The notes under the pieces are model-generated. The model had not been told where the DNA came from. It saw only the letters and a list, made by a program, of their open reading frames with translations, and searched no databases. A stretch of DNA of 64,000 nt from positions 310,001 through 374,000 of the forward strand of contig NZ_QUQO01000001.1 of the NCBI RefSeq assembly GCF_003399445.1. The letters are read 5' to 3'. The position numbers were made by a program, and so were the translations under genes. The DNA comes from Parvularcula marina (lineage in GTDB: Bacteria; Pseudomonadota; Alphaproteobacteria; Caulobacterales; Parvularculaceae). This document shows positions 24,401 to 40,846 of the stretch, one piece after another (within the stretch, counting starts at the first letter, position 1; each line of letters opens with the position of its first letter).

Positions 24401-24698
24401 CCACCGCCGTCACGGTGGCGGGTTTCGCAGGTTCCGGCGTCGGCACTGGTGCTGGCGCCGCCGGTTTCGGTTCTGGCAGGACCTTGGAAAGCTCCACCAT
24501 GGTGGGCGCCTGATCGATCAGCTGACGGAAGGTCACCTTGGTGCCGAATTCGCGGGTATAGGCCGCGGCGAGCTGCGTCAGGAACAGCGAGTCAAACCCA
24601 AGCGACAGGAAACTTGCCTCCGGCGAGAGATCGCCGGGCTCCATGCCGGACAGGTCCGCAGCGATCTGGCGGCAGCGCTCAATCGTGATCGCGCTCAT
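21486..24698 (-). CDS. Hybrid PKS/NRPS: ACP - aminotransferase - condensation
   Basis: From ATG 24698 (AGAAGGGA just upstream; an in-frame start at 24722 is less likely) the protein has 1070 residues. Domain 1 is an acyl carrier protein (LSLGFDSLF, Ser 37). After an Ala/Pro linker and a coiled segment comes a class III PLP aminotransferase (about 205-640) with VNTGSEAVQAAI, FDEVITGFRTG and the PLP lysine in TFGKVLGGGMPIG (Lys 464). This is the type embedded in the mycosubtilin and microcystin lines, which converts a beta-ketoacyl-ACP to a beta-aminoacyl-ACP. The last domain is condensation (655-1055; HHIIFDGWS). The ACP completes the module of the KS-AT protein upstream, and the condensation domain feeds the A-T protein downstream. 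Confidence 0.92.
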   Translation of the reverse strand: MSAITIERCRQIAADLSGMEPGDLSPEASFLSLGFDSLFLTQLAAAYTREFGTKVTFRQLIDQAPTMVELSKVLPEPKPAAPAPVPTPEPAKPATVTAVAKSRPVMTAFPAAEGMAGVFQQQLALMQEQLRLLTGEEAAFDLVEIAPEVTATAPVIEAAADEPYEKPALPKGFGPSLVEGDRLSPAQEDHLARLIARYNEKTKGSKAATQADRPYHADPRTAAGFDRRWKDLVYPLVINRSEGAYLWDVDGNRYIDMLNGFGPNFFGHNAPFVREALRAQLEDGFELGPQTPRAGEAAKLLCELTGMDRASWVNTGSEAVQAAIRISRTVTAKNKIVVFEGSYHGNFDEVLVRRTGKGLGRTIPLAPGIPFESVGNVIVLPYGTDETLEVIRQEADDIAAVLVEPIQSRRPEFQPLEFLHQLRDLTREQEIVLVFDEVITGFRTGPGGAQEYYGVEADLATFGKVLGGGMPIGAVAGRKGVMDTFDGGFWQYGDESVPGAGVTFFAGTFVRHPLAMAAAYASLNYLKSAGSALQNGINQNAERFQNGLNDLFSDLEVPFHLVRFGSQMFLRTGDAGPLASLFFYHLRDRGVHLLEGFPCYMTAAHTEEDVDFVIEAAREALSDMIGDGVIAGKMMPRDLTYEPSPAQTEIWVAAQLDPASHLAFNESDTFTFHGADFTQLADAVRAAISEPEAFRTTFDGDGALAHVTAEAHLDLQILDHRHLPEEECLEKRELIFTAEADTPFDLEDGPLIRPTLIRETDERAVLILYAHHIIFDGWSAEQLLEDIAAHYRGEVPERSQPFSAYAAKVADASDLDWWAEKWKEGVPSLIKWPGAIIDPSGATGAQTANRSVDAGMMRVSRALASGLSVSPSAIWLATYGLGLADMTGMRDFLIGVPAAGQALYDIPAKGCAVHLLPIRMEIEADTSFGNFVRGLQSQVAEAVEHPAISHGALVRKLNARTELGRPPLVQAVFNYRAAFTGVEMDGVTVDAMENPRRHLFQELFLNLTAHADGAEFDAEYRTALLTKLRVETLLARMTDMMGKLVAHPEAKLGQFLPQGGTGESMARPAE

Positions 24699-24744
24699 AT
24701 GCTCATCCCTTCTGACCCACATCTATGCTTAAACAATGCCATGG

Positions 24745-27492
24745 TCACTTGCCCTTCATCGCCTTGAGCTGGGCTTCGACGACCCCCAATTGCTGGCGGA
24801 TCAGGCCCGCCAGGTCGTCGCGCTCATCCGAGACCGATTCAGCACCTGCCACCGCATCTGAGGGTTCTACCCAAAACCGTTTTCTTTCAAAGGGATAGGT
24901 CGGCAAGCTCACCCGCCAAAACGCCCCCGGTTGAACCGCTTCCCAGTCGATCTCGCCGCCCTTTGTCCAATATTTGCCGAGCGCGGAAAGCATCGTCGCG
25001 CGTGCATCGCCCGGCTGTTTGGCGGGGCCGAGAGTCGTGATGGCGCTCACATCTTCTTCCGCCGACTGCATGGTCAGCGCCGCGAGCGTTGAGCCCGGTC
25101 CCACTTCGATAAAACAGTTAAAGCCATCGGCGATGGCGGCACTGACCGCGTCCAGAAACAGGACAGGTCCCAGCATCTGTTCGCGCCAATAGGCACTCTC
25201 GCCCCAGCGGGCGGCCTCCATCCGTTCGCCGGTGAAGGTCGAATAGACCTGCATGTTGTCACCAGCGGTCAGGACATCCATCGGTGCCCCGAGCATTTCG
25301 GCGGCTTCCCGCATGCTCGGCGAATGAAAGCCATGGCTGACCGCAAGGCGCGTGGCCTCGATCTCTGCTTCGCGCAGGGCAGTTTCTGTTGCGATGATCG
25401 CATCCGCCGTGCCGCTAACGACGGTGATGGCCGGGCTGTTCACCCCGGCGATCACGGCGCCGTCGCGCAGATGCCGTTCGGTCAGTGCACGCGGGGCCTT
25501 GACCCCCAGCATCCCGCCTTTGGGCATGCCGCCCATCAGGCGCCCCCGGCGCGCGGTAAAGCGCGCGGCTTCTTCGAGCGAAAGGATGCCGGCGGTGACA
25601 CTGGCCGCCAGTTCGCCTACGGAATGTCCTATGACAGCGTCCGGCGTGACACCTTTTTCAGCGAGCGCCGCCGACATGCCCGCCTCAACAGCAAGGATGC
25701 AGACTTGCGCAAACTCCGTCTGCTGTAACTGGCTGGCATCGGCGGAGGGGTTGAGCAGCCAGTCGCGGATGTCGTGGCCAAAATCGGGATCGGCTTTCAG
25801 GGTCTCAGCAACCCGGTCGATGCAGTCACGATAGGCCGGGCTTGCCTTATAAAGCGCCGCGCCCATGCCGGGATATTGCGCGCCCTGCCCAGTATAAAGA
25901 AAGCACAGTTTCGGGCTGCCCGCAGGCTCAAGCCCCATTTCAGGGCGGTCAAATCCGGCGGCAGCTTCCTCGCGCGTCGAGGCGACAACAAAGCCCCGGC
26001 GCTGGAAAGTCTTCCGCCCCCGTTGCAATGTGGCAGCGATATCACTCAGGGGCGCATCACTCTGCGCAATTGCCGGGCCTAGCCCGGCCGCCATGGCGGT
26101 CAGCGCAGTTTCTGTCCGGGCGGAGAAAGGCAGAATGAACGGTCCCTCCGTTTGCGGCAATGCCGCTGCTTCTGGCGGCTCCTCCAGCACGAGATGAGCA
26201 TTGGTGCCGCCCACCCCGAAGGACGAGACAGCAGCACGGCGAGGACCTGTGCCTTTAGGGAATGGAATAAGATCCGTATTCACATAAAAGGGCGAATTCT
26301 CGAAATCGATTTTCGGGTTCGGCGCCTCGAAATGTGCCAGAGGCGGGATCACCGCATCGCGCAAGGTCAGCGCGGTCTTGATCGTGCCGATGGCGCCGGA
26401 TGAGACATCAAGATGCCCCAGATTGCCCTTGACCGAGCCGAGCGCACAATAATGCCTGTCATCCGTATAGGCCCTGTGCGCCGCCGTCAGACCCGCGACC
26501 TCAATCGGATCGCCCAGCGGCGTGGCCGTACCATGGGCTTCCATATAGCCGATGCTGCGCGCATCGATATCGGCCATGCCCATGGCGAGCGAGATGACCT
26601 CAGCCTGCCCTTCGGGTGATGGCGCGGTGTAGCTGACCTTGCCGTCCCCGTCATTATTCGTGGCATAGCCGCGAATGACCGCATGGATGGTGTCGCCATC
26701 TGCAATGGCGTCCTCGAGACGCTTGAGGAGGACGACCGCTGCACCGTTGGAGAAGACCGTCCCCGCCGCGCGCGCATCAAAGGGGCGGCAGGTGCCATCC
26801 GGTGACAGCATGCTACCTTCTTTATACTGATATCCCTTGAATTGCGGCAGGACGATTGTCACTCCGCCCGCCAGTGCCATGTCGCAGGCATAAGATTCTA
26901 GCGACTGACACGCCGTGGCAATCGAGACGAGTGAGGTCGAGCAGGCCGTCTGCATATTGATGGCGGGGCCGCGCAGACCCAGCTTGAAGGCGACACGGGT
27001 TGCGAGATAATCTTTGTCATTGCCAAGCTCCGTCTGAAGCGTGCCGACCTGGATCGACTGGACAAGATTGCGCCGGAAGGCTTCGTCAGAGCACAGATTG
27101 TGAAGGACATAGGTGTCCATATAGCAGCCGCCGAAACAGCCAATGGCGCCTTCATAGCGGCTGGCGTCATAGCCCGCCCCCTCGATTGCCTCCCAGCAGA
27201 TTTCAAGGAACACCCGGTGCTGGGGGTCCATGACTTCCGCTTCGCGCGGCAGCATGCCCCAGAAAGCCGCATCGAACTGGTCGATGTCATCGAGCATGCC
27301 CTTGGCGCAGACATAGTCGCTGTCTCCGGCCAGCTCTTGCACGACGGGGTCAAGCTCATCCGTACCGAAATGCGAAACCGTGTCGCGGCCTTGCTTGATG
27401 TTCTCCCAGAACTCATCGACATTTTTCGCGCCGGGAAACCGGCCCGACATGCCGATAATGGCTATTCCGGGGGCTTGCGTATCGCTCGTCAT
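24745..27492 (-). CDS. Type I polyketide synthase: ketosynthase - acyltransferase
   Basis: The 915-residue protein has a ketosynthase with active Cys about 184 (QTACSTSLVS, Thr in place of the usual second Ser) and both His motifs (EAHGTATPLGDP and VKGNLGHLDVSSG). An acyltransferase follows with GHSVGELAAS (Ser about 624). Its specificity segment reads HGFHS near 718, close to the HAFH form of malonyl-CoA-specific domains and unlike YASH. There is no reductase, dehydratase or carrier domain, so the beta-keto group is kept. The carrier is the ACP at the start of the next protein. The C-terminus ends in an amphipathic stretch (LIRQQLGVVEAQLKAMKGK) that may dock. It overlaps the FkbH gene by ATGA. 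Confidence 0.93.
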   Translation of the reverse strand: MTSDTQAPGIAIIGMSGRFPGAKNVDEFWENIKQGRDTVSHFGTDELDPVVQELAGDSDYVCAKGMLDDIDQFDAAFWGMLPREAEVMDPQHRVFLEICWEAIEGAGYDASRYEGAIGCFGGCYMDTYVLHNLCSDEAFRRNLVQSIQVGTLQTELGNDKDYLATRVAFKLGLRGPAINMQTACSTSLVSIATACQSLESYACDMALAGGVTIVLPQFKGYQYKEGSMLSPDGTCRPFDARAAGTVFSNGAAVVLLKRLEDAIADGDTIHAVIRGYATNNDGDGKVSYTAPSPEGQAEVISLAMGMADIDARSIGYMEAHGTATPLGDPIEVAGLTAAHRAYTDDRHYCALGSVKGNLGHLDVSSGAIGTIKTALTLRDAVIPPLAHFEAPNPKIDFENSPFYVNTDLIPFPKGTGPRRAAVSSFGVGGTNAHLVLEEPPEAAALPQTEGPFILPFSARTETALTAMAAGLGPAIAQSDAPLSDIAATLQRGRKTFQRRGFVVASTREEAAAGFDRPEMGLEPAGSPKLCFLYTGQGAQYPGMGAALYKASPAYRDCIDRVAETLKADPDFGHDIRDWLLNPSADASQLQQTEFAQVCILAVEAGMSAALAEKGVTPDAVIGHSVGELAASVTAGILSLEEAARFTARRGRLMGGMPKGGMLGVKAPRALTERHLRDGAVIAGVNSPAITVVSGTADAIIATETALREAEIEATRLAVSHGFHSPSMREAAEMLGAPMDVLTAGDNMQVYSTFTGERMEAARWGESAYWREQMLGPVLFLDAVSAAIADGFNCFIEVGPGSTLAALTMQSAEEDVSAITTLGPAKQPGDARATMLSALGKYWTKGGEIDWEAVQPGAFWRVSLPTYPFERKRFWVEPSDAVAGAESVSDERDDLAGLIRQQLGVVEAQLKAMKGK

Positions 27493-29504
27493 GAAACTCT
27501 CCGGGGGCGGCGCATCCGGGCGGCCCGCATCGCCGCTGCCCTGTCAAAACCTAAATTGTCTTCTGCCCCGAGATGCCGAGCCAGCGCCTCAATAGTCGGG
27601 AAACGGAAGAGGTCAGCAAGCGCGATCTCGACCTCCATCTCCCGCGTCATGCGGGCGTGAATACGCACAAGATGGAGCGACTTACCTCCAAGGGCGGTAA
27701 AACTGTCTGTACGCCCGATCTGCTCAATGCCAAGGACATCCTGCCATATCTTTGACAGCGCCACCTCGGTATCGCCGCGCGGAGACTGGAAAGTCGTCTC
27801 GAGCATCGGGCGCGTCTGTTGCTCCGCTGATAGGGCAGCCACAGGGGTTCCCTCATGGGCTGCAAAAGCGAACCGCTGATAGGCCGCGCCGCGTCCTTCC
27901 ATGCCGGCTTCAGCTGCGGCGATAAGGTCATCGCCATCGCCTGTCTCTTCGGCCGGATCAAACCGCAATTGCGATATCTCTTCCGTGGAGAGATCAAGCC
28001 AGCCCTCTTCGGGCAAGTCGCTTCCTTCAAGCCGGTCAAGGAAACGCCGCATTGGCGCATTGCGTGGCCCCGTGACATGGCGGATGCGCAACGTCCGGGC
28101 GCCTGTATCCGCCATCAATTGGCGAAGCAGGTCATGCTCGACGCCGCGGCCCAGCACCCGGCAGCTCAGGCAGAAAAGATCAAGCGACAGCGTGCCCCCG
28201 TTAAGGTCACCGATCACAAGACCAACAAGACCGTAATCGCCGAAGCGGTCGGCGACATTGACTGCCCGCAGAACCGCGCCGGGCTTCTCCAGCCGTGACG
28301 CAACGTCACCCTCTGTCAGCCGCAGCAGCGAGGAATTGAACTGGTTCGTCCGCTGGCTGAGCTGTGCGATGCGCGCGACATCGCCCGTGCCGGGCGTGAA
28401 CATCTCGACCCTGAGGCCGAGCGTTGCATAAAAGCTGTCGAGATCGCCGCTTTTTGCTTTTTCGGCCTGCCGTCCGGCCTCTTCCCGCAAGCGGCGGACC
28501 CGTTTTTCATCATCCGTTGTTGCCGTGCCCTGATCAAATGGCCAGAGTCCATCAAGATAGGCATGTGAAGGACCGTCCTCGGGCACTCCGACCGTCAGGA
28601 CGCCGGGCATGGCCTCGCGCATCCGCGCAAGCTCCACAGGATTGTCGTCAAGGAACAGGATGGCTTCCTGCCCCACGCCATGCGTTGCAGCCAAGCGCGC
28701 GAGATGCGCGGATTTCTCACCCCATCCGGCATTGACCTCAAAGAAGTCCTCCTTACCAAGAGGAAAATCAGATCGCCCGAGCAGGAGCGCCCGAATATCG
28801 GTGCTTTCATTCTTGGTCAGGAGCGTCAGGATCACGCCGCGTGCAGCGGCGGACTTAAGGCGCTGCTGCAATTCAAGATGACCTTCATCGAGCCGGACAC
28901 CACCGACCCCGTCCTCACCGAGAACACCGCCCCAAATAGTATTGTCACCATCGACAGCGATCAGCTTGACCGGCGGGCGCAGTGCCCCGTCGATGATCCG
29001 CGCCATGTAGAGCGCTAGCGCAGCCATGCCGCTTTCTGTATAGGGCAGATGCCCTGTCCGGTTGGTCAGCTCATCGCCCGGATCACCGATCCCGAAACCG
29101 TCGAAAACATGGCGTGCAGGGACGATATCGATATGGGCTTCGCTGTGGAATTTCTCTTTCAGGCGGGAGGCGGTCGCATTCTCCGCTGCCGGATCATCGT
29201 GCCCGATCAGGATGCAGAGCGGGATGCCGTCTTCGGCCTGCCAGACAGCAGACACGGTGAGAGCTTCGTCGTCTTCGATATCCTGGGGCCGCAACAAGAT
29301 GAAGCGGCGGCTTGCCGGCGCCCAGAATGAGCCCTCCGCATCGCTTAGCTGGGCTGCGAACCTGCCATAAGGCACGGCGCGAATATCCACCGGCCATCCA
29401 AGTTCGCCCGCAAGGTGGCTGAGATGATCAAGAACCGGCCCAAGGGTGTAGCTGGCTGCAAGCGCAATCGGTGCGCGCGTCGAATCGCCGATGTCCGCCC
29501 CCAT
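27489..29504 (-). CDS. FkbH-like HAD-family loading protein fused to an acyl carrier protein
   Basis: About 170 N-terminal residues of a less conserved domain precede the HAD-like FkbH core: VDGDNTIWGGVLGEDG (DxDNT, near residue 185), LLTKNE, FLDDNPVELARMRE and RTNQFNSSLLRL, then an acetyltransferase-like tail. A carrier domain closes the protein (FTALGGKSLHLVR, Ser about 609). FkbH proteins take 1,3-bisphosphoglycerate, dephosphorylate it and load a glyceryl group on an ACP; related domains load D-lactyl starters. Carrier and enzyme in one chain, placed before the KS-AT, suggest a starter unit. No FkbG, FkbI or FkbK-like genes for methoxy- or hydroxymalonyl extenders are present. I prefer ATG 29504 (AAGGGGGAG well spaced) to 29513. 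Confidence 0.9.
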   Translation of the reverse strand: MGADIGDSTRAPIALAASYTLGPVLDHLSHLAGELGWPVDIRAVPYGRFAAQLSDAEGSFWAPASRRFILLRPQDIEDDEALTVSAVWQAEDGIPLCILIGHDDPAAENATASRLKEKFHSEAHIDIVPARHVFDGFGIGDPGDELTNRTGHLPYTESGMAALALYMARIIDGALRPPVKLIAVDGDNTIWGGVLGEDGVGGVRLDEGHLELQQRLKSAAARGVILTLLTKNESTDIRALLLGRSDFPLGKEDFFEVNAGWGEKSAHLARLAATHGVGQEAILFLDDNPVELARMREAMPGVLTVGVPEDGPSHAYLDGLWPFDQGTATTDDEKRVRRLREEAGRQAEKAKSGDLDSFYATLGLRVEMFTPGTGDVARIAQLSQRTNQFNSSLLRLTEGDVASRLEKPGAVLRAVNVADRFGDYGLVGLVIGDLNGGTLSLDLFCLSCRVLGRGVEHDLLRQLMADTGARTLRIRHVTGPRNAPMRRFLDRLEGSDLPEEGWLDLSTEEISQLRFDPAEETGDGDDLIAAAEAGMEGRGAAYQRFAFAAHEGTPVAALSAEQQTRPMLETTFQSPRGDTEVALSKIWQDVLGIEQIGRTDSFTALGGKSLHLVRIHARMTREMEVEIALADLFRFPTIEALARHLGAEDNLGFDRAAAMRAARMRRPRRVS

Positions 29505-29564
29505 GCTCTTCATCTCCCCCTTTGGTGAACAGATGAGCCATAACGCGTTCAGATTTCTATTCTA

Positions 29565-30242
29565 TTACGACCTAAGGTCCTGCAGTTTCAGGGAGTTTAT
29601 CGGTCTGTCGTGAGCAACGCAGCCATATTCGCCGTAATCCCCGCGGAACGCTTCGAAATGCCACTGGCGTGGGTCAGTTTCCGGACCGGCAGAAACGTGT
29701 TTCGGCGGCGTCTGGCTGAGATCCAGCGAGAAACCCGGCCAGTCGGCGGCCAGCCCTTTCCCAAGCGCCTTGCTGAACGCCTCCTTGGCAGTCCAGAGCC
29801 GCAGGAAGGCTTTCTCTTTTTCCTCACCTGAGAAACCAGACAGATACTCTTGTTCAGACTTGGAAAAATGGTCTTTAGATATCGCGTCCGCTTCCGGCAC
29901 CGCGCGCGCCATCTCAATGTCGATTCCGAGCCGGCCATCCGGGGCCAACGCCATGGCGCCCGCCCCCTCGCTGCGGGACAAGCTCCAGCTGAGTGGCACG
30001 GCATTCCCTCCATCGGTAAGGATGGGGGCCTGCCCCTCCTTCTCTTCAAAGCGCAATGAGGACGCCGGCCGATCAAGCGCCTGACCCAAAAAAAAGCGCA
30101 TCCACAAACGACCGTGGATGAAACGGGTACAGTCTTCCTCCCGCATATACGAGGCTGCCCGATCTCTCTCGTAAGTCGTTGAAAGAGAGCCGAAATCGAG
30201 GCCTTGAGGGGGCGCATCGAGATCAAACAGGAAGATTTGCAT
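29565..30242 (-). CDS. 4'-phosphopantetheinyl transferase, Sfp type
   Basis: This enzyme moves the phosphopantetheine arm from CoA to the carrier-domain serines, which the five carrier domains here require. The 225-residue protein has the Sfp-type length and motifs: RFIHGRLWMRFFLG in the N-terminal half, the metal-binding GIDIEMAR (Asp and Glu), and LWTAKEAFSKALGKG (the WxxKEA motif). The ATG at 30242 is preceded by an in-frame TTG that I do not use. It is the first minus-strand gene of the cluster, 60 bases upstream of the FkbH gene, and is divergent from the diguanylate cyclase gene. Confidence 0.93.
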   Translation of the reverse strand: MQIFLFDLDAPPQGLDFGSLSTTYERDRAASYMREEDCTRFIHGRLWMRFFLGQALDRPASSLRFEEKEGQAPILTDGGNAVPLSWSLSRSEGAGAMALAPDGRLGIDIEMARAVPEADAISKDHFSKSEQEYLSGFSGEEKEKAFLRLWTAKEAFSKALGKGLAADWPGFSLDLSQTPPKHVSAGPETDPRQWHFEAFRGDYGEYGCVAHDRPINSLKLQDLRS

Positions 30243-30305
30243 CAAATATGCGTATCCAGATTAAGAATCGATTCACGTCGTTTTCTAACCATATCGAAAT
30301 CAGAA

Positions 30306-31418
30306 ATGGCTAGGCCGGTCCCGGGAACGAGTGGGGGCAAAGACTGGGCCATGATTACATATCCGCAGCAGAAGTTTGAATCGATCAAGTCAGAAGTCGA
30401 GCAGCGATACCGGATTCTCGATGGATCCTCTGCTTATGACACAAACCATATGGCGAGGACTGTCGCCCTCGCCTTCCGCGTGCCGATGGTGATCGCGGCG
30501 CTCAACGAGCGATACCGTGCATGGTTTTCATCCTCGCACGGGGTTTCCGAAGCCCTTGACGATCAGGTCCACGACCTCTGCTCTCTTGCCAACCTCGCTG
30601 ACCGGTTCTTTCAGGTCGAGGATATGGCGGAAGACCAGTATTTTTCCGGTGAGAAACTGGTCAGTGAAGCCCCGAACATGCGCTTCTTTGCTGGCGTGCC
30701 GCTACGCGATCCCGATGGGAAGCGATTCGGCACCCTCTGTATTCTCGACAACAAGCCCCGCGTGATGAGCGAATCGGATAGCCGCCTTCTCAAAAGCTTT
30801 GCCGGGCTTCTTTCCAACGACATTTGCGTCCGCAGTGCGGGCCGTTATGCGGTTCAGGACCTGATCCATGCCGAAGAAGACAAGTGCTCGCTTTATGATC
30901 TTGCGGTCACTGATTCGCTCACGGGGGCGCTGAACCGCCGGGCCTTCTTCCATTTGACAGAACGCGAAGTCCCGCGCGCAGAGCGTCATCGCGTCCCCCT
31001 CACGGCTGTTCTTTTCGACATTGATCACTTCAAGAAGGTCAATGACGTCCATGGGCACGCCGCAGGCGACGATGTGATCGCCAGTCTGTCCCGCATCGTG
31101 TCCAAGGAAATCCGAGAAGAAGATTATCTTGGCCGTCTCGGCGGGGAGGAATTCGGCCTCATCCTGCCGGAAACGACACCTTCACAAGCCGTCTCGCTGA
31201 CCAACAGGTTACGCCAGAAGATCAAAGGCTTGACCTTCCTAGGCGAAGGCGGATCCTTCTCGATTACCGTCAGCTTTGGCGTCGCTGCCATCGATCCTGG
31301 CGAGCGGTCAGTTCATCCCGCACTCGAGCGCGCCGACCGCGCGCTCTATGTTGCAAAGCGAAATGGCCGGGACCGTGTCGAACTGGCCGTCGAGTGTCTC
31401 GGCAGGTTGTCCGCCTGA
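30306..31418 (+). CDS. Diguanylate cyclase with GAF sensor domain
   Basis: The enzyme makes cyclic di-GMP from two GTP. An N-terminal GAF domain (about residues 30-180; MRFFAGVPLRDPDGKRFGTLCILD) is followed by a GGDEF domain (about 205-365; TDSLTGALNRRAFF, LFDIDHFKKVND). The active loop is GGEEF in LGRLGGEEFGLILPE, which is catalytically competent. An RxxD inhibitory site (REED) sits five residues before it, so product inhibition is expected. No membrane segment is seen, so it is cytoplasmic. The start is uncertain: ATG 30306 or 30351; the frame opens earlier, but that would overlap the phosphopantetheinyl transferase gene. Its signal is unknown. Confidence 0.92.
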   Translation: MARPVPGTSGGKDWAMITYPQQKFESIKSEVEQRYRILDGSSAYDTNHMARTVALAFRVPMVIAALNERYRAWFSSSHGVSEALDDQVHDLCSLANLADRFFQVEDMAEDQYFSGEKLVSEAPNMRFFAGVPLRDPDGKRFGTLCILDNKPRVMSESDSRLLKSFAGLLSNDICVRSAGRYAVQDLIHAEEDKCSLYDLAVTDSLTGALNRRAFFHLTEREVPRAERHRVPLTAVLFDIDHFKKVNDVHGHAAGDDVIASLSRIVSKEIREEDYLGRLGGEEFGLILPETTPSQAVSLTNRLRQKIKGLTFLGEGGSFSITVSFGVAAIDPGERSVHPALERADRALYVAKRNGRDRVELAVECLGRLSA

Positions 31419-31529: not shown

Positions 31530-32906
31530 ATGCGGAAGCGAGAAGTGTTCAAGCAGATTCTGGCGGCGGGGGCCGTGATTTTCAGCCTGGGCACCATGGC
31601 ATGGGCCCAGCAACATCCAGTACCATTGGACGACGGGGCGATGGCGCAAGGCGTTGCGTCCTGCGCCGGCACGACCTGTCACAGCCGCCAGACCGCTAGC
31701 GGCGCGATCGTGCGGCAGAACGAGATTCTCACCTGGCAGGATCCTTCCCGTTCAAGCGGCGCGCATTCACGCGCCTATCAGGTGCTGATGACCCCGCAGG
31801 GTCAGGCGATTTCACGGCTGGCCGGCTTCGGCCCGGCCGAGAAGGCACCCGAATGCCTCTCCTGCCACGCCCATGATGTCCCTGAAACTCAGTGGGGCGA
31901 TCAGTTCAATATCTCCGAAGGCGTCACCTGCGAGAGCTGTCACGGTAATGCCGAGAAATGGCTGTCGACCCATTATGCCGTCGGCGTCAGCCATGAGGAC
32001 AATCTTGCGAATGGCCTCTTCCCAACGACTGATGTCGAAAAGACGACCAGCCTTTGCCTCGACTGTCATTTCGGCAGCACACGGGAGAAACAGTTCGTCA
32101 CGCACCGAATCATGGGTGCGGGCCACCCGCGGATGAGCTTTGAGCTGGAGCTGTTCACTGCCCTGCAACAGCACCACACCGTCGACATGGATTACCTCGA
32201 GCGCAAATCCATGGTGCGGACTTCATCGATGAAGAACTGGGCCGTTGGTCAGGCGATTGCGCTGGAACGTGCGACCGAGCTTTTCACGGATGATGAGCTT
32301 GGCCGGGATGGTCTGTTCCCTGAGCTCTATTTCTTTGACTGCCATGCTTGCCACCAGCCTTTGTCCAATGACCGGCAGACCTTTGCTGGCTGGCGCCCCA
32401 ATCCGGGCCGCCCACTCGGACCGGGCGTGCCTGTCTTTACAGATTCAAACCTCATCATGCTGAAAGCCGCAGTCGCTGAAGTCATGCCGGAGCGGTCCGC
32501 CGAATTCAGTCAGGTCGGCGCAAGACTGCATGCCGCAACTCGTGTCGATCATGACGCGACCAAGCTCGCTGCCGCCGCCCTTGCCGATTACAGCCGAGAT
32601 CTGCGCGAAGCTTTCCTCGAGACTGAATTTGATAGCCGTACGACGATGAATATCCTGTCGCGCATTCTCGATGCGACGACTGCCGCAGAGTACACGAATT
32701 ATGCGGCAGGCGAGCAGGCAGTCATCGCTGTTGATGTCTTCCTCAATGCGATGGTCGATCAGGGCGCGATTGAATTCAGCATCTTGGATGAACTTGCGCC
32801 CGAGATCGATGAGGCCTTCGACGCGGTGCAGAACCCCTCGGATTACGACGCCGCCCGTCTTCGTCGCGCACTTCTCGCTATCGCGGACCGGACCCGGAGG
32901 CTCTGA
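31530..32906 (+). CDS. Secreted pentaheme cytochrome c (cytochrome c554-like)
   Basis: The 458-residue protein has a Sec signal peptide (about 1-26, ending AWA) and five c-type heme motifs. The first is a CX4CH site (CAGTTCH, residues 45-51). Four CXXCH sites follow: CLSCH (109), CESCH (134), CLDCH (176) and CHACH (271). Spacing and extra His residues (THRIMGAGHP, LQQHHTVD) suggest bis-His ligation as in cytochrome c554-like proteins. The C-terminal 180 residues have no heme motif and look helical. It is the first gene of the multiheme operon; a GAGGGTGAGGG ribosome site precedes ATG 31530. A periplasmic electron carrier is the natural role. Confidence 0.9.
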   Translation: MRKREVFKQILAAGAVIFSLGTMAWAQQHPVPLDDGAMAQGVASCAGTTCHSRQTASGAIVRQNEILTWQDPSRSSGAHSRAYQVLMTPQGQAISRLAGFGPAEKAPECLSCHAHDVPETQWGDQFNISEGVTCESCHGNAEKWLSTHYAVGVSHEDNLANGLFPTTDVEKTTSLCLDCHFGSTREKQFVTHRIMGAGHPRMSFELELFTALQQHHTVDMDYLERKSMVRTSSMKNWAVGQAIALERATELFTDDELGRDGLFPELYFFDCHACHQPLSNDRQTFAGWRPNPGRPLGPGVPVFTDSNLIMLKAAVAEVMPERSAEFSQVGARLHAATRVDHDATKLAAAALADYSRDLREAFLETEFDSRTTMNILSRILDATTAAEYTNYAAGEQAVIAVDVFLNAMVDQGAIEFSILDELAPEIDEAFDAVQNPSDYDAARLRRALLAIADRTRRL

Positions 32907-32911
32907 ATCAC

Positions 32912-34969
32912 ATGAGCAGTTGGGTCAGTAAAGCGCTCGGGGTCTCGCTCCTCGCCTTAACCATATCCTGTTCAGGCGGTGGCGGCGGCACGACTGCCGC
33001 CCCTGAACCGACGCCGAACTCTCCTCCTCCGCCGACACGTCGTTTCGAAGATCCGCTTCCGCGTTCCTTGAGCGTGGCAGATGTAGAATCTCTACTTTCG
33101 GCAGCAATTGCCGAAGCGCAGGCGCGCGGGACGCCGGGGACGATCGCTGTGGTTGATCGGGTCGGCAATGTGCTGGCCCTTTATCAAATGACAGGCGCCC
33201 CGCCGAACGCGATTGTCGATGGTGCTCCTTCTGGCCGCCATGCCGGGCTTCAGACCGTCCGGGCACCGAGCGATCTTGTCGCCATCACCAAGGCGATTAC
33301 AGGCGCTTATCTGTCGTCTGGCGGTAATGCGTTCTCGACCCGGACAGCGAGCCAGATCGTACAGGAGCATTTCCCGCCAGCCCCGGGCCTGACAAACGGT
33401 CTGGAAAGCGGTCCGCTTTTTGGTGTGCAGATCAGCCAGCTTCCCTGTTCGGACCTCAATACCCGTTACGATGAGATACAAGGGCCTTTCATCGGCCCCA
33501 ACCGCTCTCCGCTAGGGCTATCGGCTGATCCCGGCGGCTTTCCTCTTTACAAGGATGGGGTCGTTGTTGGCGGCATCGGCGTGACGGTCGATGATACCTA
33601 CACCTTCGATCCCGATATTCGTGATAACGACATGAGCGATGAGGAAATCATCGCTTTTGCGGCCAGCCGTCTTTTCCCGGCACCAGAAGAGATCATTGCA
33701 CCGAGAATCCTTGTCGATGGCACCGCGCTGCGGTTCTCGGACGCAGATGAGGACGATTTCTTGACCGATCCCATGGCTGCGCCTGCCTTTGGTACGCTGC
33801 CCGGCGGCATAGGTGCCCTGCGCCCGGTTCGCGGCTATTTCGGGCAAGGCATGGTCGCGACAATCCAGGCAGGCACGACTTATGGCACGGAGCAATCCGG
33901 CATTCGTTTGTCCACGGCCTTTAATACGCCTGACGCTTACGTGCTTACGGACGGTTTGGGCACGAACCGCTATCCTCCTTCGGCAGGCACGGATGGCGGG
34001 TCAGTATCACAGCCCCTGACAGCGCTCGAAGTCCAAACCCTGCTCGAGGAAGCCTTCAACATCCTCAGTCAGGCTCGCGCGCAGATCCGTCAGCCGCTCA
34101 ATTCACGGGCACAGGTCACGGTCTCGGTCGTTGATACTAATGGCGAAATTCTCGGCATGGTTCGCTCGCCTGACGGGCCGATCTTTGGCACCGATGTCAG
34201 CCTGCAAAAGGCGCGGACGGCAGCTTTCTTCTCCGGGCCCGATGCCGCAAATGATCTGAACGCAACACCGCGTCCGCCCGCATTAGAGCCCCCCGCTGTT
34301 CCAGCAGGATTGTCGGACCAAATGGCCGGGAACCGTCCGCCGGGCCTTGATACAGTCGTCACCCGTACACGGACATTCTTTGACGACCCGACCGCTTTGA
34401 CTGGTACGCACGCTTTTGCTGACCGCTCGGGCGGCAATATATCCCGGCCCTATTTCCCGGATGGGGAGCTCGGTAACGGGCCGGGGCCATTCTCCGTCCC
34501 GATTGATGACTTCAATCCATTCAACACAGGTCTTCAGACTGAGCTCGCTGTGGTGAATATTTCCGAGCATGTCGGCTTTGTCCTCGGGATCTCACCTACA
34601 GATACCAATCGTGGTTGCACCTTCCTGCCTTCAACAGGTGCGCCTTTGCCGATGGGCCGGGATGTCAGCAACCGGCTGATGAACGGCATCCAGATTTTCC
34701 CCGGCTCCGTGCCGATCTATCGCGGCGATCAGCTGATCGGCGGGATCGGCGTGTCTGGCGACGGAATCGACCAGGACGACATGATCTCATTCCTTGGCCT
34801 GCATAATGCCGGGCTGAAGCTGGGGACGATCAATAACGCGCCACCGGAGATTCGCGCCGACCGCATCGTCGTGCAGCTCAATGACCGTCAGGTTCGCCTG
34901 CGCTATGTCAATTGTCCGTTCACGCCATTTGTTGACTCCAGTCAGCAGAATGTCTGTCAGGGGAAATGA
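32912..34969 (+). CDS. Lipoprotein with two GlcG/HbpS-like domains
   Basis: The 685-residue protein begins with a lipoprotein-like signal (LLALTISCSGGGGG). It has two related regions of the GlcG/HbpS (pfam03928-type) fold. The first covers about 50-250 (SVADVESLLSAAIAEAQ, IAVVDRVGNVLALYQM, DGVVVGGIGVT). The second covers about 370-650 (LTALEVQTLLEEAFNI, VSVVDTNGEILGMVR, GDQLIGGIGVSGDG). HbpS-type domains bind heme or corrinoid ligands in some proteins. This copy is much longer than the single-domain family because of insertions. It starts 5 bases after the pentaheme gene and ends one base before the barrel gene, so it is part of the same operon. A heme-handling or redox-sensing accessory at the outer membrane is inferred. 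Confidence 0.8.
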   Translation: MSSWVSKALGVSLLALTISCSGGGGGTTAAPEPTPNSPPPPTRRFEDPLPRSLSVADVESLLSAAIAEAQARGTPGTIAVVDRVGNVLALYQMTGAPPNAIVDGAPSGRHAGLQTVRAPSDLVAITKAITGAYLSSGGNAFSTRTASQIVQEHFPPAPGLTNGLESGPLFGVQISQLPCSDLNTRYDEIQGPFIGPNRSPLGLSADPGGFPLYKDGVVVGGIGVTVDDTYTFDPDIRDNDMSDEEIIAFAASRLFPAPEEIIAPRILVDGTALRFSDADEDDFLTDPMAAPAFGTLPGGIGALRPVRGYFGQGMVATIQAGTTYGTEQSGIRLSTAFNTPDAYVLTDGLGTNRYPPSAGTDGGSVSQPLTALEVQTLLEEAFNILSQARAQIRQPLNSRAQVTVSVVDTNGEILGMVRSPDGPIFGTDVSLQKARTAAFFSGPDAANDLNATPRPPALEPPAVPAGLSDQMAGNRPPGLDTVVTRTRTFFDDPTALTGTHAFADRSGGNISRPYFPDGELGNGPGPFSVPIDDFNPFNTGLQTELAVVNISEHVGFVLGISPTDTNRGCTFLPSTGAPLPMGRDVSNRLMNGIQIFPGSVPIYRGDQLIGGIGVSGDGIDQDDMISFLGLHNAGLKLGTINNAPPEIRADRIVVQLNDRQVRLRYVNCPFTPFVDSSQQNVCQGK

Positions 34970-34970
34970 C

Positions 34971-36800
34971 ATGATGGACCGGTTCCGCCTTCTCACCCTT
35001 GCCGCCTTCGCCGTGATCCCCTCGGCCTGTGCGACATATGGGCATGAGCCGAACCCGAAAGTACCCGATCCCGTCAATGCGCCGCCCGTCGATCCGCGGG
35101 CACTTGAACAACAGACGGAAGTGATCGAGGCCGAGCGCCGCCGTCCGGGCCGCCCGGTCCCCGAAGACGAGATCGTCGTCCTCAACCCCGGTGCCGTCCC
35201 GCCTCCGCCCGTGGGCGCAGGCGCAATCGTTCCCGTGCCGGACCGCTGGCGCCTTGCCGAGGCGATCGGGGTCAAAGAGAAGTGGTACGATCCTTATAAT
35301 CAAAACACGCTGAAGGGCGACCGGCCGATCCTCGGCAATGATGAGCTGTTCCTTGTTGCGGCCCTGACCTCTGACACGGTGATCGAGCCGCGCACCTTCC
35401 CGACGCCAGTCAGCATCCAGACGACCGAAGAGCCTGACCAGCTTGATGTCTTTGGCGAGAGTGACAGTTTCGTCTTTGCTCAGACTTTCATTCCCTCTTT
35501 CTCTCTGATCAAGGGGATGACGGCCTATAAACCGCCAGATCTTGAATTCCGCCTGACACCGGCGATTCAAGTCAACTATGTCGACATCAAGGAGCGCCGG
35601 GCGCTTTTTGTTGAACCGTCGCGCGATACGGAGCGCACGGATTTCTACGTCGGCATTCAGGAAGCCTTTGTGGATTACCATATCCGCAACGTCTCGGACC
35701 GGTATGATTTCGATTCCGTCCGTGTCGGCGTTCAGCCTTTCAATGCTGATTTCCGGGGTTTCCTGTTCCAGGACAGCCAGCTCGGCATTCGCTTCTTCGG
35801 AAACCGCGACAATAACCGCTTCCAGTATAATCTCGCTGCCTTCATGCGGCTCGAGAAGGACACGAACTCCGGCCTCAACGCGGTCGATGAGGAAATCCGC
35901 GAGGATTATGTCCTTGCCGCAAATATCTACCGTCAGGACCTGCCCTTCCCGGGCATGACCAGCCAGGCGACCTTTATCTGGAACATCAACCGGGAGTCGG
36001 ACGACGTCGAGATCGACGAGAACGGCTTCCCCGTGCGCCCCGCCCTTCTCGGCAATCTTGAAGGCCGTGAATATGATGTAGGCTATCTGGGCTATTCGGC
36101 AGACGGACGGATTGGCCGGATCAACCTCTCGGCCTCTGTCTATCATGCCTTTGGTGAGAACCGCGACGGCGACTTCGTCAGCGAGCCAACCGATATCTCC
36201 GCCTGGTTTGCTGCTGTCGAACCCTCGATCGATGTCGACTGGCTGCGCTTCCGCCTCTCGGCGCTTTATGCCTCGGGCGACAGCGACCCCTATGATGACA
36301 AGGAAGAAGGCTTTGATGCCATCTTCGAGAACCCGCAATTTGCCGGCGCCGACACCAGTTACTGGATCCGTCAGACGATCCCTTACGCAGGTGGCGGACG
36401 GGTCATTGCGGTCAATGGCCGGAACGGCATTCTCAACTCACTGCGGTCCTCGAAAGAACAGGGCCAGTCGAATTTCACCAATCCGGGCACGCTTCTGCTC
36501 GGCGGCGGTGTTGATGCCGATGTCCTGCCTGAGTTGCGGCTGACGCTGAATGCCAATCATCTGTGGTTTGACGATACCTCGATCCTCTCCGCGACCCGCA
36601 TTCAGGGGCCGATTGCCGAAGACATCGGCTATGACCTTTCGGCTTCCGCGATCTACCGGCCGAATTTCATCCAGAACGTGGTCCTCAGGCTATCCGGCGC
36701 GGCGCTCGTCCCCGGAGACGGCTTCAAGGAACTCTTCGGCAGCGAGGAAGAACTCGACGCCTATTACTCCATCCTCTTCAACGCGGTGCTGTCCTACTGA
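34971..36800 (+). CDS. Predicted outer-membrane beta-barrel of the multiheme operon
   Basis: From ATG 34971 the product has 609 residues. It starts with a signal peptide and a possible lipobox (VIPSAC). A Pro-rich segment (about 25-85) follows. The rest alternates hydrophobic and polar residues with many aromatic-ended strands (FRLTPAIQVNYVDIKE, FRFRL-type strands, FQYNLAAFMRLEKD) and ends in a C-terminal Tyr after FNAVLSY, as outer-membrane barrels do. I recognise no named porin family, and there is no CXXC motif as in MtrB. It lies between the HbpS-like lipoprotein gene and the decaheme gene, and overlaps the latter as TGATG. An outer-membrane conduit or sheath for the cytochromes is the likely role, by context only. 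Confidence 0.8.
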   Translation: MMDRFRLLTLAAFAVIPSACATYGHEPNPKVPDPVNAPPVDPRALEQQTEVIEAERRRPGRPVPEDEIVVLNPGAVPPPPVGAGAIVPVPDRWRLAEAIGVKEKWYDPYNQNTLKGDRPILGNDELFLVAALTSDTVIEPRTFPTPVSIQTTEEPDQLDVFGESDSFVFAQTFIPSFSLIKGMTAYKPPDLEFRLTPAIQVNYVDIKERRALFVEPSRDTERTDFYVGIQEAFVDYHIRNVSDRYDFDSVRVGVQPFNADFRGFLFQDSQLGIRFFGNRDNNRFQYNLAAFMRLEKDTNSGLNAVDEEIREDYVLAANIYRQDLPFPGMTSQATFIWNINRESDDVEIDENGFPVRPALLGNLEGREYDVGYLGYSADGRIGRINLSASVYHAFGENRDGDFVSEPTDISAWFAAVEPSIDVDWLRFRLSALYASGDSDPYDDKEEGFDAIFENPQFAGADTSYWIRQTIPYAGGGRVIAVNGRNGILNSLRSSKEQGQSNFTNPGTLLLGGGVDADVLPELRLTLNANHLWFDDTSILSATRIQGPIAEDIGYDLSASAIYRPNFIQNVVLRLSGAALVPGDGFKELFGSEEELDAYYSILFNAVLSY

Positions 36801-39800
36801 TGTCATTCCGTCTGCTCATCGCAGCGCTCGGCGCACTCATCTTCCTCCTCACGGGGACGGCTTTCGCTGCGCCTGAATCGGAAAAGCCGGTCAAGCGAAC
36901 CTATGTGACCGCACCTGCTGCGCCGTTCGGGCAAACCTGGATGGAAGCGGATGCGAAGTCCGATGGCTGCGAGAGCTGCCACCTAGAGACCGACCGCAAG
37001 ACCATGCACGCAAGCCCCGGCGTGGTGCTGGGGTGCACGGACTGTCACGGCGGGAACGCAAGCGTTTTCTGGAATGGCGGCGAGGTGCCGGTTCGCAGCG
37101 TCAAAGGTCATGAGACGAGTTACGGCTCTGCCTTTGCCGAGGAAAAAGCCAGCAAAGACGGCCATGACGATTTCGATGAGAAACATCCCGAATTTGCCGA
37201 GACGCGGAACCGTGCCCACGTCCTGCCGACCTATCCTGAGACCTGGCATTTCCCGCACTCAGCGAACCCTGAGCGCAGCTATGCACTCCTGAATAAAGAA
37301 GCACCCGAATTCGTCCGCTTCGTGAACCCGTCCGACTACCGCGTTGCGCGCGAGTCTTGTGGCGCCTGCCACTTGCCGATCATTGAGGCTGCTGAGCGCT
37401 CGCTGATGGCAACCGGCGCCATGCTGTGGGGCGGGGCCGCCTATAATAACGGCATCCTGCCCTATAAGAATTACATTCTCGGCGAGGCCTATACGCGCGA
37501 GGGTGAACCCGCCGCGCTGATCGGCCCGGGCAATCCGGCAGGCACGCTGACCGAAGCGCAGGCCGCGCGCGGCATCCGTCCATGGCTGGCCCCGCTGCCG
37601 ATGTGGACCGTCATTCCGCCCGCAGACGTCTTCCGTGTCTTCGAGCGTGGCGGGCGGAACGTCATCACCCAGTTTGCAGAGGTCGGCCTGCCCAATCCGA
37701 CAGGGCAGATCCAGCGTCTCGAAGAACCCGGTCGTCCGGACCTGCGCCAGTCGAACCGCGGTCCCGGTACAGGTCTGCGCGTTGCGATCCCCGTCCTCAA
37801 CATTCACAAGACCCGCCTCAATGACCCCTTCACCTGGTTCATGGGGACGAATGATCAGCCCGGAGACTATCGCATGTCAGGCTGTTCGGCCTGCCATACG
37901 CCTTACGCCAACGACCGTGAGCCGCGGCACTCGCTGACTTACGCCAAATATGGCCGGGATGGTGAAACCCAGACAAAAGATCCGACGATCCCGCATGGCG
38001 AGAGCGGCCACCCGATCCGGCATGAATTCACCAGCGCCATTCCGACCGCTCAGTGCATGAACTGTCACATGCACCAGCCGAACATGTTCCTGAATACATA
38101 TCTCGGCTACACGATGTGGGATTATGAGAGTGATGCGCCGACCATGTGGCCGGAAAAGCAGCACTATCCTACGATTGCCGAGCAGCGTGAGGTTCTTGAC
38201 CGCAACCCCGAAGGCGCGGCGACAAAAGGCAATTGGCGCAAGCTCGACTTCCTGCGCAATGTCTATGACCTGAACCCAGAGCTCAAAGATACGCAGTTTG
38301 CGGATTATCACGGCCATGGCTGGAACTTCCGTGCCATCCTGAAACGTGACCGCGACGGCAACCTCCTTGATGCCGAGGGCAATATCGTCGATCCCGACGA
38401 TCCCGAGAAATGGCGCCGCGAGGGCGAACCGGATTTCGTTGAAGTTGGCACGAACCCGGGCAAATCCGTCCACATGATGTCGATCCATGCCGAAGTCGGC
38501 ATGCAGTGCGCGGATTGCCACTGGTCAGGCGACAGCCACGGCAATGGCTATATTCATGGCGAGGTTGCGAACGCGGTCGAGATCCGCTGTCGCGACTGTC
38601 ACGGCACGGCGGATGATTATCCGATGCTGCGCACCTCGAATGTTGCCGCGACCCCGCGCGGCCGGGACATGACGACCTTGCGTAACCCTGATGGCCGTCT
38701 GCGCTTTGAGTGGGTCACTCGCGATGGCCGCCGCACGCTGATCCAGCGCTCCATCGTGGATCCCGAGCTTGAATGGGAGATGAGCCTCGTCAAGGATAGC
38801 CTCGACAAGACGCACCCGGATTATAATGCCAAGGCCGCACGCGCAAAAACCGTCGCCATGGATTATGATAGCAATGGCCTCCTCCCTTGGGGCCCCGGCG
38901 TCGGCAAGGAAGCGCGCGCCCATGATGACGACGACATGGCCTGCTTTACCTGCCACCTCTCCTGGACGACGTCCTGCGGTGGCTGCCATTTGCCGATCGA
39001 AGCGAACTGGAAGACTAAGACCCACAAATATGAGGAACAAACCACGCGGAACTATGCGACCTATAACCCGCAAGTTGCCCGCGACCAGATGTTCCAGCTC
39101 GGCAAGCACCAGACCACAAAGGGCAATATCGTTGCCCCGGTGCGTTCGACCTCCGCGCTCGTGCTGACTTCGACCAATGTGAACCGTGAACGGATCTATA
39201 TCCAACAGCCGCCGATCTCCTCGGCCGGTTACTCCTCACAGGCTTTCGCGCCGCACTTCCCACACACGGTGCGCAAGACTGAGACAAAGACCTGCTCTGA
39301 CTGTCACGTCTCCGTTGATGAGGACAACAACGCGATCATGGCGCAGCTCATGCTGCTGGGCACGAATTTCGTCAATTTCGTCGGCCTTCATGCCTATGTC
39401 GGTGAGGAAGGCGCCCTCGAAGCGATCCGTGTCACCGAATTCGAAGAACCGCAGGCTGTCTTTGGCTCCTATCTTCAGGAATATGCCTATCCCGATTATT
39501 ACAGGGCGCATGTCGAGAAGAATGACCGTGAGCTGATCAACTGGAAGCGCGGCAAGACCTTCGATCTCGACAATAAGGGCTCTGGTGAGACCGGCGCGCT
39601 CGAGGAAATCGCCAATGTCCGTCAGGACGCGCGCGGCGCGGTCAACTGCCTGCAGCATCGCGGCGAATATCTCTTCGTTGCCGAAGGCAAGGGCGGCTTC
39701 ATGGTCTATGACATCGCCTCGGTCGGCAATAAGGGCTTCTCCGAGCGTATCGTCACCGCGCCCTTCTCACCGCTCGGCCATGACCCTCGCGTCAAATCGA

Positions 39801-40846
39801 AGAATGCGACCTGCATGGCGATGGCGACCAACCAGCCGGTCAACCCGCTGCGCAACACGCCTGAGATCCAGGAGATCAATCAGGAACAGCCGATGCACCC
39901 GATCTACAGCTATGCTGTTGTGACGGATGCGGAGGAAGGTCTCTATCTGGTTGACATCACGACTTTCGCCGATGGCGAAGCGCGCAACAACTTCCTTGAG
40001 CGTGCGGTGACGTGGAATCCGAATGGCGTGCTTGATGGCGCAAGCCATATCACCCTTGCCGGCACGATCGCCTATATCACGACACCGCGCGGCATTGCGG
40101 TCGTCGATCTTGATGATCCCCTCAGCCCGCGGCTTGCCGCCGACGTCGCCTTGCCCGGTGCGCGCGCAACGGCGGTGCAATTCCGCTATCTCTTTGCGAG
40201 CTCTGATCGCGGTTTCCATGTCTTTGACATCACCGATCTTTATAAGCCGCAGGTGGTCGAAAGCGGCTTCATTCCGATGTCGGACGCGCACCGCATATAT
40301 GTCGCGCGAACCTATGCTTATGTCGCGGGCGGACGCGAGGGCCTCTATATCGTCGATGTCGAAAAGCCCCGTACCCCGACGGTCTACCAGCAGGTGACGA
40401 GCTTTGACGGCTCGCCCGTGCGAATCGAGGATGCGCGCGATGTTATTGTGGGCACGACCAATGCGTCGCTCTTTGCCTATGTCGCGGATGGGACAGGCGG
40501 GTTCAAACTGCTGCAGTTGACCTCGCCCATGGCGGGACGCGGTGCCGACGGCAAGAATGAGCGGCCTTCCATGCAGCCCAATTTCTACGGCTTCTCGCCC
40601 GAGCCTCGGCCGGAGCTGATCGCCTGGAAGAAGACCCGCACGCCCGCTATTGCGATCTCCAAGGGCCTCGATCGTGACCGCGCCGTCGATGAGACCGGCC
40701 ACCAGATGGCGGTCTTTGGCCGCTTGGGCTCACGGCCGTTCACGCGAGCGGAGATGGAGCAATTCTTCCTTGAAGAAGATGGCAGTGTCCTGCGCGTCTC
40801 TGACGAGGTCGACGAAGCGGCATGGGTCGACGGCGAAGACGACTGA
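36800..40846 (+). CDS. Decaheme cytochrome c with C-terminal LVIVD-type beta-propeller
   Basis: This 1348-residue secreted protein has a signal peptide (about 1-23) and ten CXXCH heme motifs. Their first Cys lie at about residues 57, 79, 187, 362, 419, 570, 597, 715, 726 and 832. The hemes are widely spaced, unlike the compact decahemes of the MtrA/MtrC type. From about 950 to 1250 there are at least four repeats of the LVIVD kind (GLYLVDITTF, GIAVVDLDDPLSPRLAAD, GFHVFDITDLYKPQVV, GLYIVDVEKPRTPTVYQ), which form a beta-propeller. The gene overlaps the barrel gene by one base (TGATG) and ends the operon. A terminal reductase or surface electron-transfer protein is likely; the substrate is unknown. 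Confidence 0.9.
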   Translation: MSFRLLIAALGALIFLLTGTAFAAPESEKPVKRTYVTAPAAPFGQTWMEADAKSDGCESCHLETDRKTMHASPGVVLGCTDCHGGNASVFWNGGEVPVRSVKGHETSYGSAFAEEKASKDGHDDFDEKHPEFAETRNRAHVLPTYPETWHFPHSANPERSYALLNKEAPEFVRFVNPSDYRVARESCGACHLPIIEAAERSLMATGAMLWGGAAYNNGILPYKNYILGEAYTREGEPAALIGPGNPAGTLTEAQAARGIRPWLAPLPMWTVIPPADVFRVFERGGRNVITQFAEVGLPNPTGQIQRLEEPGRPDLRQSNRGPGTGLRVAIPVLNIHKTRLNDPFTWFMGTNDQPGDYRMSGCSACHTPYANDREPRHSLTYAKYGRDGETQTKDPTIPHGESGHPIRHEFTSAIPTAQCMNCHMHQPNMFLNTYLGYTMWDYESDAPTMWPEKQHYPTIAEQREVLDRNPEGAATKGNWRKLDFLRNVYDLNPELKDTQFADYHGHGWNFRAILKRDRDGNLLDAEGNIVDPDDPEKWRREGEPDFVEVGTNPGKSVHMMSIHAEVGMQCADCHWSGDSHGNGYIHGEVANAVEIRCRDCHGTADDYPMLRTSNVAATPRGRDMTTLRNPDGRLRFEWVTRDGRRTLIQRSIVDPELEWEMSLVKDSLDKTHPDYNAKAARAKTVAMDYDSNGLLPWGPGVGKEARAHDDDDMACFTCHLSWTTSCGGCHLPIEANWKTKTHKYEEQTTRNYATYNPQVARDQMFQLGKHQTTKGNIVAPVRSTSALVLTSTNVNRERIYIQQPPISSAGYSSQAFAPHFPHTVRKTETKTCSDCHVSVDEDNNAIMAQLMLLGTNFVNFVGLHAYVGEEGALEAIRVTEFEEPQAVFGSYLQEYAYPDYYRAHVEKNDRELINWKRGKTFDLDNKGSGETGALEEIANVRQDARGAVNCLQHRGEYLFVAEGKGGFMVYDIASVGNKGFSERIVTAPFSPLGHDPRVKSKNATCMAMATNQPVNPLRNTPEIQEINQEQPMHPIYSYAVVTDAEEGLYLVDITTFADGEARNNFLERAVTWNPNGVLDGASHITLAGTIAYITTPRGIAVVDLDDPLSPRLAADVALPGARATAVQFRYLFASSDRGFHVFDITDLYKPQVVESGFIPMSDAHRIYVARTYAYVAGGREGLYIVDVEKPRTPTVYQQVTSFDGSPVRIEDARDVIVGTTNASLFAYVADGTGGFKLLQLTSPMAGRGADGKNERPSMQPNFYGFSPEPRPELIAWKKTRTPAIAISKGLDRDRAVDETGHQMAVFGRLGSRPFTRAEMEQFFLEEDGSVLRVSDEVDEAAWVDGEDD

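Follow-up and report, generated by a model that had tools for sequence, protein, structure and literature searches.

The systems closest to the locus studied here join multiheme cytochromes with a protein of the outer membrane. PCC4 was put forward as a putative conduit made of a porin and multiheme cytochromes with 4, 5 and 10 sites (He et al. 2017, PMC5566968). The passages of that paper considered here give its inner-membrane protein two WX3HX13H motifs, an SGxxG motif and five transmembrane helices, place the gene for a PF13247 iron-sulfur protein upstream of the inner-membrane protein gene in Subgroup II, and propose that electrons flow from a donor to quinone; the portion of PMC13264449 (2026) considered mentions PCC4 once. 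ExtHIJKL of Geobacter combines a heme-free rhodanese lipoprotein, a barrel and a periplasmic pentaheme cytochrome, according to the passages considered of PMC6148476. Here we describe a four-gene operon, P1-P2-P3-P4, in a 64,000-nucleotide stretch of the Parvularcula marina genome (contig NZ_QUQO01000001.1, positions 310,001 to 374,000; referred to here as the window). Our data indicate that the operon is part of a conserved electron-transfer system comprising seven genes that are linked or inherited together; the window contains four of them. The reading that we favor, with moderate confidence, is that these four supply the outer-membrane module, together with the periplasmic relay, of a PCC4-like conduit from NAD(P)H to the cell surface, with an outer module different from that of PCC4.

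The operon and its inner-membrane partners

The operon exists as first described, with four open reading frames on the plus strand at window positions 31530-40846 and intergenic spacings of 5, 1 and -1 bases. We took 34971 as the start of P3, given an AGGGG element just 5' of it; a longer reading frame from 34881 would overlap P2. The preliminary description had identified the products as a secreted pentaheme cytochrome, an HbpS-like lipoprotein, a predicted outer-membrane barrel and a decaheme cytochrome with an LVIVD-type propeller, and all four assignments held. For residue conservation, rows shorter than 85% of the length of the window protein were excluded, and a few rows share a genome, the window's own included. 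P1 contains four CxxCH motifs and one CX4CH motif, i.e., five candidate heme sites, all kept in 90 of 90 rows along with six further histidines conserved to 1.00; it matches cytochrome c554 in Pfam (1e-9) and, as a profile, in the PDB (1bvb, 1.1e-6). P4 matches LVIVD (4.1e-10) and cytochrome c7 (5e-7) in Pfam, and the Foldseek matches of its C-terminal part are mostly beta-propellers. Ten CxxCH motifs are present in 116 of 117 P4 rows, with eight in the remaining row, and 13 further histidines ahead of the propeller are at 1.00; neither the sequence nor the profile of P4 found a match in the PDB. The conservation of heme sites across the P1 and P4 rows is more than chance. P2 contains three stretches matching HbpS-like PF03928 (9.5e-28) and a lipobox-like signal, whose cysteine (Cys20) is present in 87% of 88 rows.

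P3 was modeled as an 18-strand barrel with a mean predicted local distance difference test score (pLDDT) of 70 and a predicted template modeling score of 0.72; near copies were removed by eye from the alignments for the models, which left 69 of 84 eligible relatives for P3, 75 of 100 for P4 and 48 of 68 for P1. The first 86 residues are of low confidence, though the N-terminal extension has partly conserved columns. The best Foldseek match is AlgE (3rbh, 1.3e-15, target template modeling score 0.68), and the 50 fold matches shown comprise AlgE and other porins, the OprD family among them. The Pfam scan placed no family above its cut-off for P3: alginate export (PF13372) reached 15 bits against a cut-off of 25.2, and MtrB_PioB (PF11854) was absent from a listing that extends to an E value of 0.1. 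The P3 profile matched nothing among PDB sequences, and a beta-amphipathicity count failed to separate P3 from controls and was not used. We also considered P3 as a lipoprotein and rejected this; the apparent lipobox cysteine is kept in just 3% of 94 rows, so P3 is probably not a lipoprotein.

The preliminary description treated the operon as the system itself. We found that the operon is real but is only the outer half, since an inner-membrane module, F6-F5-F2, lies elsewhere in the genome. These three genes were the recurrent neighbors of the four in 21 distant stretches that we fetched, 20 of them picked for P4 or P1 matches within the class. Gene calls in the distant stretches, at the organism's own inner-module locus and at its own type II secretion system (T2SS) locus came from a codon-score heuristic, not annotation. 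F6 contains a pyridine-nucleotide oxidoreductase domain (flavin adenine dinucleotide [FAD]/NAD(P)H), two cyclic-nucleotide-binding domains and 4Fe-4S domains in Pfam; it carries PF13247, and 16 of its cysteines are at 1.00 in 53 rows. F5 is a di-heme-b-type membrane protein, weakly cytochrome-b561-like below the Pfam cut-off, with the WX3HX13H motif twice in each of 64 rows and SGxxG in 52 of 64. A crude hydropathy count gives the organism's own F5 four hydrophobic segments, compared to the five helices described for the PCC4 protein. F2 combines cytochrome c7/c3 domains with an FHA-like N-terminus and one hydrophobic segment. Every one of the 69 F2 rows has ten CxxCH motifs, and ten additional histidines of the periplasmic part are kept in at least 90%; FHA is above its cut-off only in the F2 of locus L141, and the organism's own F2 lists just a related model below cut-off.

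Linkage of the two modules is direct at some loci. In L141, from a genome of another class (G687), the genes run in one direction as F6-F5-F2-P2-P3-P4-P1, and in L146 the order is P1-F6-F5-F2-P2-P3-P4. When GTDB genome contigs were scanned with P4, 443 relatives emerged, and we kept the best 80 as named loci. Of the 62 named loci that exceed 20 kb, 46 carry F2, 43 carry F5 and 42 carry F6, near P4 and usually downstream on the opposite strand. The neighbor clusters of the 80 named loci had seemed mere synteny and became meaningful only once F2, F5 and F6 were recognized. In the organism's own genome the module lies 1.7 Mb from the operon, at about 2,087,553-2,092,760 of contig G000:C1 (positions 9554-14761 of locus L169). 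It is contiguous, with a 1-base overlap followed by a 10-base gap, and ccmF begins 9 bases beyond; a CHASE2-cyclase and a calcineurin-like phosphoesterase are encoded upstream, and the cytochrome c maturation proteins CcmF and CcmH downstream. The upstream region, at 2856-8539 of L169, also encodes a Crp/Fnr regulator, a FecR-domain protein and a TPR protein together with the CHASE2-cyclase.

Comparison with described systems

We found that the inner module fits the published description of PCC4 within the passages considered. F5 has the two WX3HX13H motifs and the SGxxG of the PCC4 inner-membrane protein, and the organism's own F6 has PF13247 and precedes F5, as in Subgroup II. A cluster in another genome of the class, G166, has proteins with 4, 5 and 10 CxxCH motifs, a barrel candidate, F5 and F6, and fits PCC4. 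In contrast, the heme set of the window type is 4 CxxCH (plus one CX4CH), 10 and 10, without a 5-CxxCH protein. The window type also lacks a barrel candidate of the G166 kind (L159); its own outer module comprises an unrelated barrel, an HbpS-like lipoprotein and a decaheme cytochrome with a propeller. Domains for FAD/NAD(P)H and for cyclic nucleotides are present in its F6. The main text of PMC5566968 contains none of the words FHA, cyclic nucleotide, HbpS and LVIVD, the supplements, which show domain architectures, being outside the search. Because the F5 and F6 features match and the heme set and outer module do not, we call the system PCC4-like rather than PCC4, an assignment based on description for the inner module. 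The preliminary description suggested that the set may be an independent conduit; it is not wholly so, given that the inner module matches the PCC4 description as far as that was covered.

The distinction from MtrCAB and PioAB (MtoAB) that the preliminary description drew for a coherent electron-transfer system is upheld. The operon shares with them a barrel, multiheme cytochromes and the idea of an outer-membrane conduit; in contrast, P3 has an AlgE-like rather than an MtrB-like barrel and does not match MtrB_PioB. The organism's own genome has no MtrB_PioB match at E <= 0.001, and 14 control genomes were likewise below cut-off, so that this search had no strong positive control. The MtrA/DmsE-type model TIGR03508 (cut-off 192.2) gave 19.1 bits for P1 and 30.2 for one F2, and P4 was not listed. 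A NapC/NirT tetraheme protein (PF03264), the CymA-type donor, was not found in the organism's own genome at E <= 0.001, with a positive control in Escherichia coli. As in the ExtHIJKL passages considered, a lipoprotein, a barrel and a pentaheme cytochrome are combined; P2, however, is HbpS-like and not rhodanese. P4 has local matches to ExtM (NF040943), at 65.5 bits against a cut-off of 800. AlgE shares the fold and the 18 strands of the P3 model, yet P3 falls below the PF13372 cut-off and is associated with cytochromes. We found no description of the window-type cluster in the open-license literature searched, in which a paper could have been missed.

Distribution, co-inheritance and possible module exchange

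The preliminary description had proposed a synteny search for the four genes. P1, P2, P3 and P4 are all present in 62 of the 62 named loci longer than 20 kb (among the best 80 of 443 relatives), and their order is kept as far as the contig reaches (25 arrangements listed, covering 78 of 80 loci). By title, all 80 named relatives are alphaproteobacteria, mostly Sphingomonadales and some Caulobacterales. Within the family of the window's organism the operon is patchy; 16 of 62 genomes matched P4, 14 of these being real (the organism's own included) and two weak propeller matches. Two of the 14 (G037 and G018) have one reported internal stop each in P4. Across the phylum, 23 of 398 genomes matched P4; 11 were full by inspection, one of them (G687) outside the class. 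A scan of 365 genomes of the order of G687 gave 21 matches, with full-length P4 only in G687 and a distant relative of the P4 heme part in G992.

We next consider co-inheritance in a class sample of 289 genomes, related members of which are not independent; for that reason, hypergeometric values for the overlaps are not taken as proof. P3 is present in 20 of the 289. P4 matched 25 at E <= 0.001, i.e., five weak partial matches and 20 real ones, the latter in the same 20 genomes as P3 and distributed over 13 families. P1 matched 48 genomes, 26 of them above 300 bits, a cut-off chosen post hoc because no score lay between 56 and 314 bits; F6 is present in 26 at E <= 1e-40. All 20 P4 genomes carry P1 and F6, which occur together in 25. 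At the level of sequence, the parts, their linkage, their co-inheritance, and the conserved heme, cluster and nucleotide-binding residues are established.

Six genomes have F6 without P4 (G166, G121, G113, G319, G181 and G086). In G166 (L201), a P1 of 4 CxxCH, a 5-CxxCH protein termed F15 and a barrel candidate accompany F2-F5-F6; the barrel candidate was recognized by its signal and C-terminal phenylalanine and has no Pfam match. G121 (L202) has the same set with two P1-like genes of 4 CxxCH, and at its locus L156 (contig C19) two P1-like pentaheme copies flank the F15 pentaheme protein and a barrel candidate. Among the loci compared, F15 is found only in L156 and L159, i.e., G121 and G166, and P3 has no significant similarity to the L159 barrel candidate. 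In G086, P2 lies at the contig edge beside F2, and P3 and P4 may be unassembled. We placed 31 F6 rows on a tree, counting G086 with the window type; the row from G687 is incomplete and long. The two F15-type rows do not group together but lie among window-type rows, and starred branches force at least two changes. Either one inner module received different outer modules, or inner modules were transferred from one outer module to another.

Proposed electron path and its alternatives

We infer the order and direction of electron flow, the surface exposure of P4, contact between barrel and cytochromes, nucleotide control and the substrate from the features above. The cytoplasmic flavoprotein F6 would take electrons from NAD(P)H and pass them, over what are probably four [4Fe-4S] clusters, to the two b-hemes of F5. 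These would reduce the ten hemes of F2, held by a one-helix anchor with its FHA-like domain in the cytoplasm, and electrons would continue through pentaheme P1 to decaheme-propeller P4. Barrel P3 and lipoprotein P2 would keep P4 at the outer membrane, and the final step there would be reduction of an acceptor that is either external or at the cell surface.

Since F6 has two binding domains and cyclase and phosphoesterase genes are adjacent to it in the organism's own genome, a cyclic nucleotide might switch electron entry at F6. The Gly-Glu and Arg of both nucleotide-binding cassettes are kept in 53 of 53 F6 rows; in CRP-type domains these residues contact the phosphate of bound cyclic AMP. 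The phosphoesterase, which presumably splits cyclic nucleotides, is found in 46 of the 62 long named loci and a cyclase in 24. For the lineage of the window such control is plausible; beyond that lineage it is unproven. As to export, T2SS might be the route for P4, and T2SS exports surface cytochromes in Shewanella. A T2SS locus is present in the organism's own genome, with GspE assigned by homology and the other Gsp names by reading of gene content, and in 7 of the 21 distant loci, from seven genomes (L142, L143, L148, L149, L157, L158 and L161), an E-type gene lies beside, one gene from or within two genes of P1, two of them with intervening genes. F-type genes occur in five of these seven stretches and a prepilin peptidase in three.

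Several observations weigh against the proposed conduit. It rests on sequence and models, and to our knowledge the host bacteria are not known as electroactive. P1 is on the opposite strand or outside the fetched stretch in many distant loci, G113 and G319 have P1 and F2-F5-F6 with no outer module recognized in the fetched stretch, and in G181 F6 stands by itself. Modeling of the P4 heme part was poor (mean pLDDT 54 in a model of residues 40-1239), and by eye P4 has no lipobox. Control by a cyclic nucleotide may be limited to a lineage, since neither a cyclase nor a phosphoesterase was found in any of the 21 distant stretches. P3 resembles porins and substrate exporters with roughly 18 strands, narrower than the 26-strand barrel of MtrB, and may therefore not house a cytochrome. 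Lastly, F6 could work in reverse.

That last point leads to an alternative that we judge unlikely though worth serious attention, in which an extracellular donor, e.g., Fe(II) or Mn(II), would feed electrons via P4, P3, P1 and F2 to F5 and on to the quinone pool, or to NAD+ via F6. Multiheme wires are generally reversible, and F5 carries the motifs of the PCC4 inner-membrane protein in all rows. The passages considered of He et al. (PMC5566968) propose the donor-to-quinone direction for PCC4 itself. The FAD/NAD(P)H-oxidoreductase and cyclic-nucleotide domains of F6 nevertheless fit NAD(P)H as the donor more simply, and the hosts, judged by their names, are mostly heterotrophs. Slightly less probable again is a periplasmic reductase fed by F6-F5-F2, with P1 and P4 both periplasmic and P3 an ordinary AlgE/OprD-like channel, so that there would be no outer-membrane wire. 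The preliminary description had named a plain solute porin as a finding that would tell against a conduit, and the barrel goes part of the way, its best fold match being the solute exporter AlgE, with OprD-family porins also matched; by eye, P4 and P1 have plain Sec-type signals without a lipobox. Against this reading stand the presence of P3 and P4 in an identical set of 20 among the 289 genomes, the conservation of lipoprotein P2 and the conserved columns in the N-terminal segment of P3. The conserved histidines, moreover, suffice for a second ligand at every heme (pairing predicted), leaving no obvious open catalytic heme. We regard as very improbable that this is a polysaccharide-export or secretion cluster with cytochromes next to an AlgE-like exporter by chance. 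AlgE is the best structural match, but the four genes stay together in every long named locus, F6 is present in 20 of 20 P4 genomes, the PF13372 score is below cut-off, and no recurrent glycan-synthesis neighbor was recognized, most neighbor clusters being judged by eye only.

Coordinates, neighboring genes and implications

Features of the operon in window coordinates; heme-part coordinates were converted from residue positions and propeller boundaries estimated from model strands.
Feature	Position	Strand	Basis
P1, secreted pentaheme cytochrome, c554-like, probable periplasmic relay	31530..32906	+	458 aa; 1 CX4CH + 4 CxxCH
P2, lipoprotein with HbpS/GlcG-like domains, without CxxCH	32912..34969	+	685 aa; PF03928 9.5e-28
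P3, predicted outer-membrane beta-barrel, AlgE/OprD-like fold, 18 strands in model	34971..36800	+	structure model, Foldseek, conserved columns
P4, secreted decaheme cytochrome with C-terminal beta-propeller	36800..40846	+	1348 aa; 10 CxxCH; propeller matches
P4 heme-binding part, residues 57-836, ten CxxCH	36968..39307	+	residue positions
P4 LVIVD-type beta-propeller, about residues 945-1245	39632..40534	+	Pfam LVIVD, Foldseek

A GAF-GGDEF protein is encoded on the same strand at 30204-31418, ending 111 bases 5' of P1. The operon adjoins a hybrid nonribosomal peptide synthetase/polyketide synthase-type cluster on the minus strand (16574-29513), which contains ketosynthase/acyltransferase, carrier-aminotransferase-condensation and condensation-adenylation-carrier proteins and a carrier protein that is FkbH-like by eye, and ends with a 4'-phosphopantetheinyl transferase (29565-30245, minus). 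Farther along, a TonB-dependent receptor, heme-receptor-like by eye (48805-50949, minus), lies beside a DUF6607 protein (51066-52106, plus).

More broadly, we tentatively entertain, as a clearly less secure claim than the conduit itself, that these genes represent a widespread undescribed class of conduit. NAD(P)H electrons would pass through 25 predicted c-type hemes, with a quinone-independent inner module gated by cyclic nucleotide, a cyclase and phosphodiesterase of its own and exchangeable outer modules, in mainly aerobic alphaproteobacteria. With a defined inner module joined to an outer module in named strains, electron transfer across the outer membrane becomes a directly testable question. 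If true, direct gating of a conduit by a cyclic nucleotide would be a new kind of regulation. Sphingomonads and Erythrobacter-like and Caulobacter-like bacteria abound in fresh water, soil and the sea, and, if the proposed conduit is real, many of them would be able to export or import electrons across their outer membrane.

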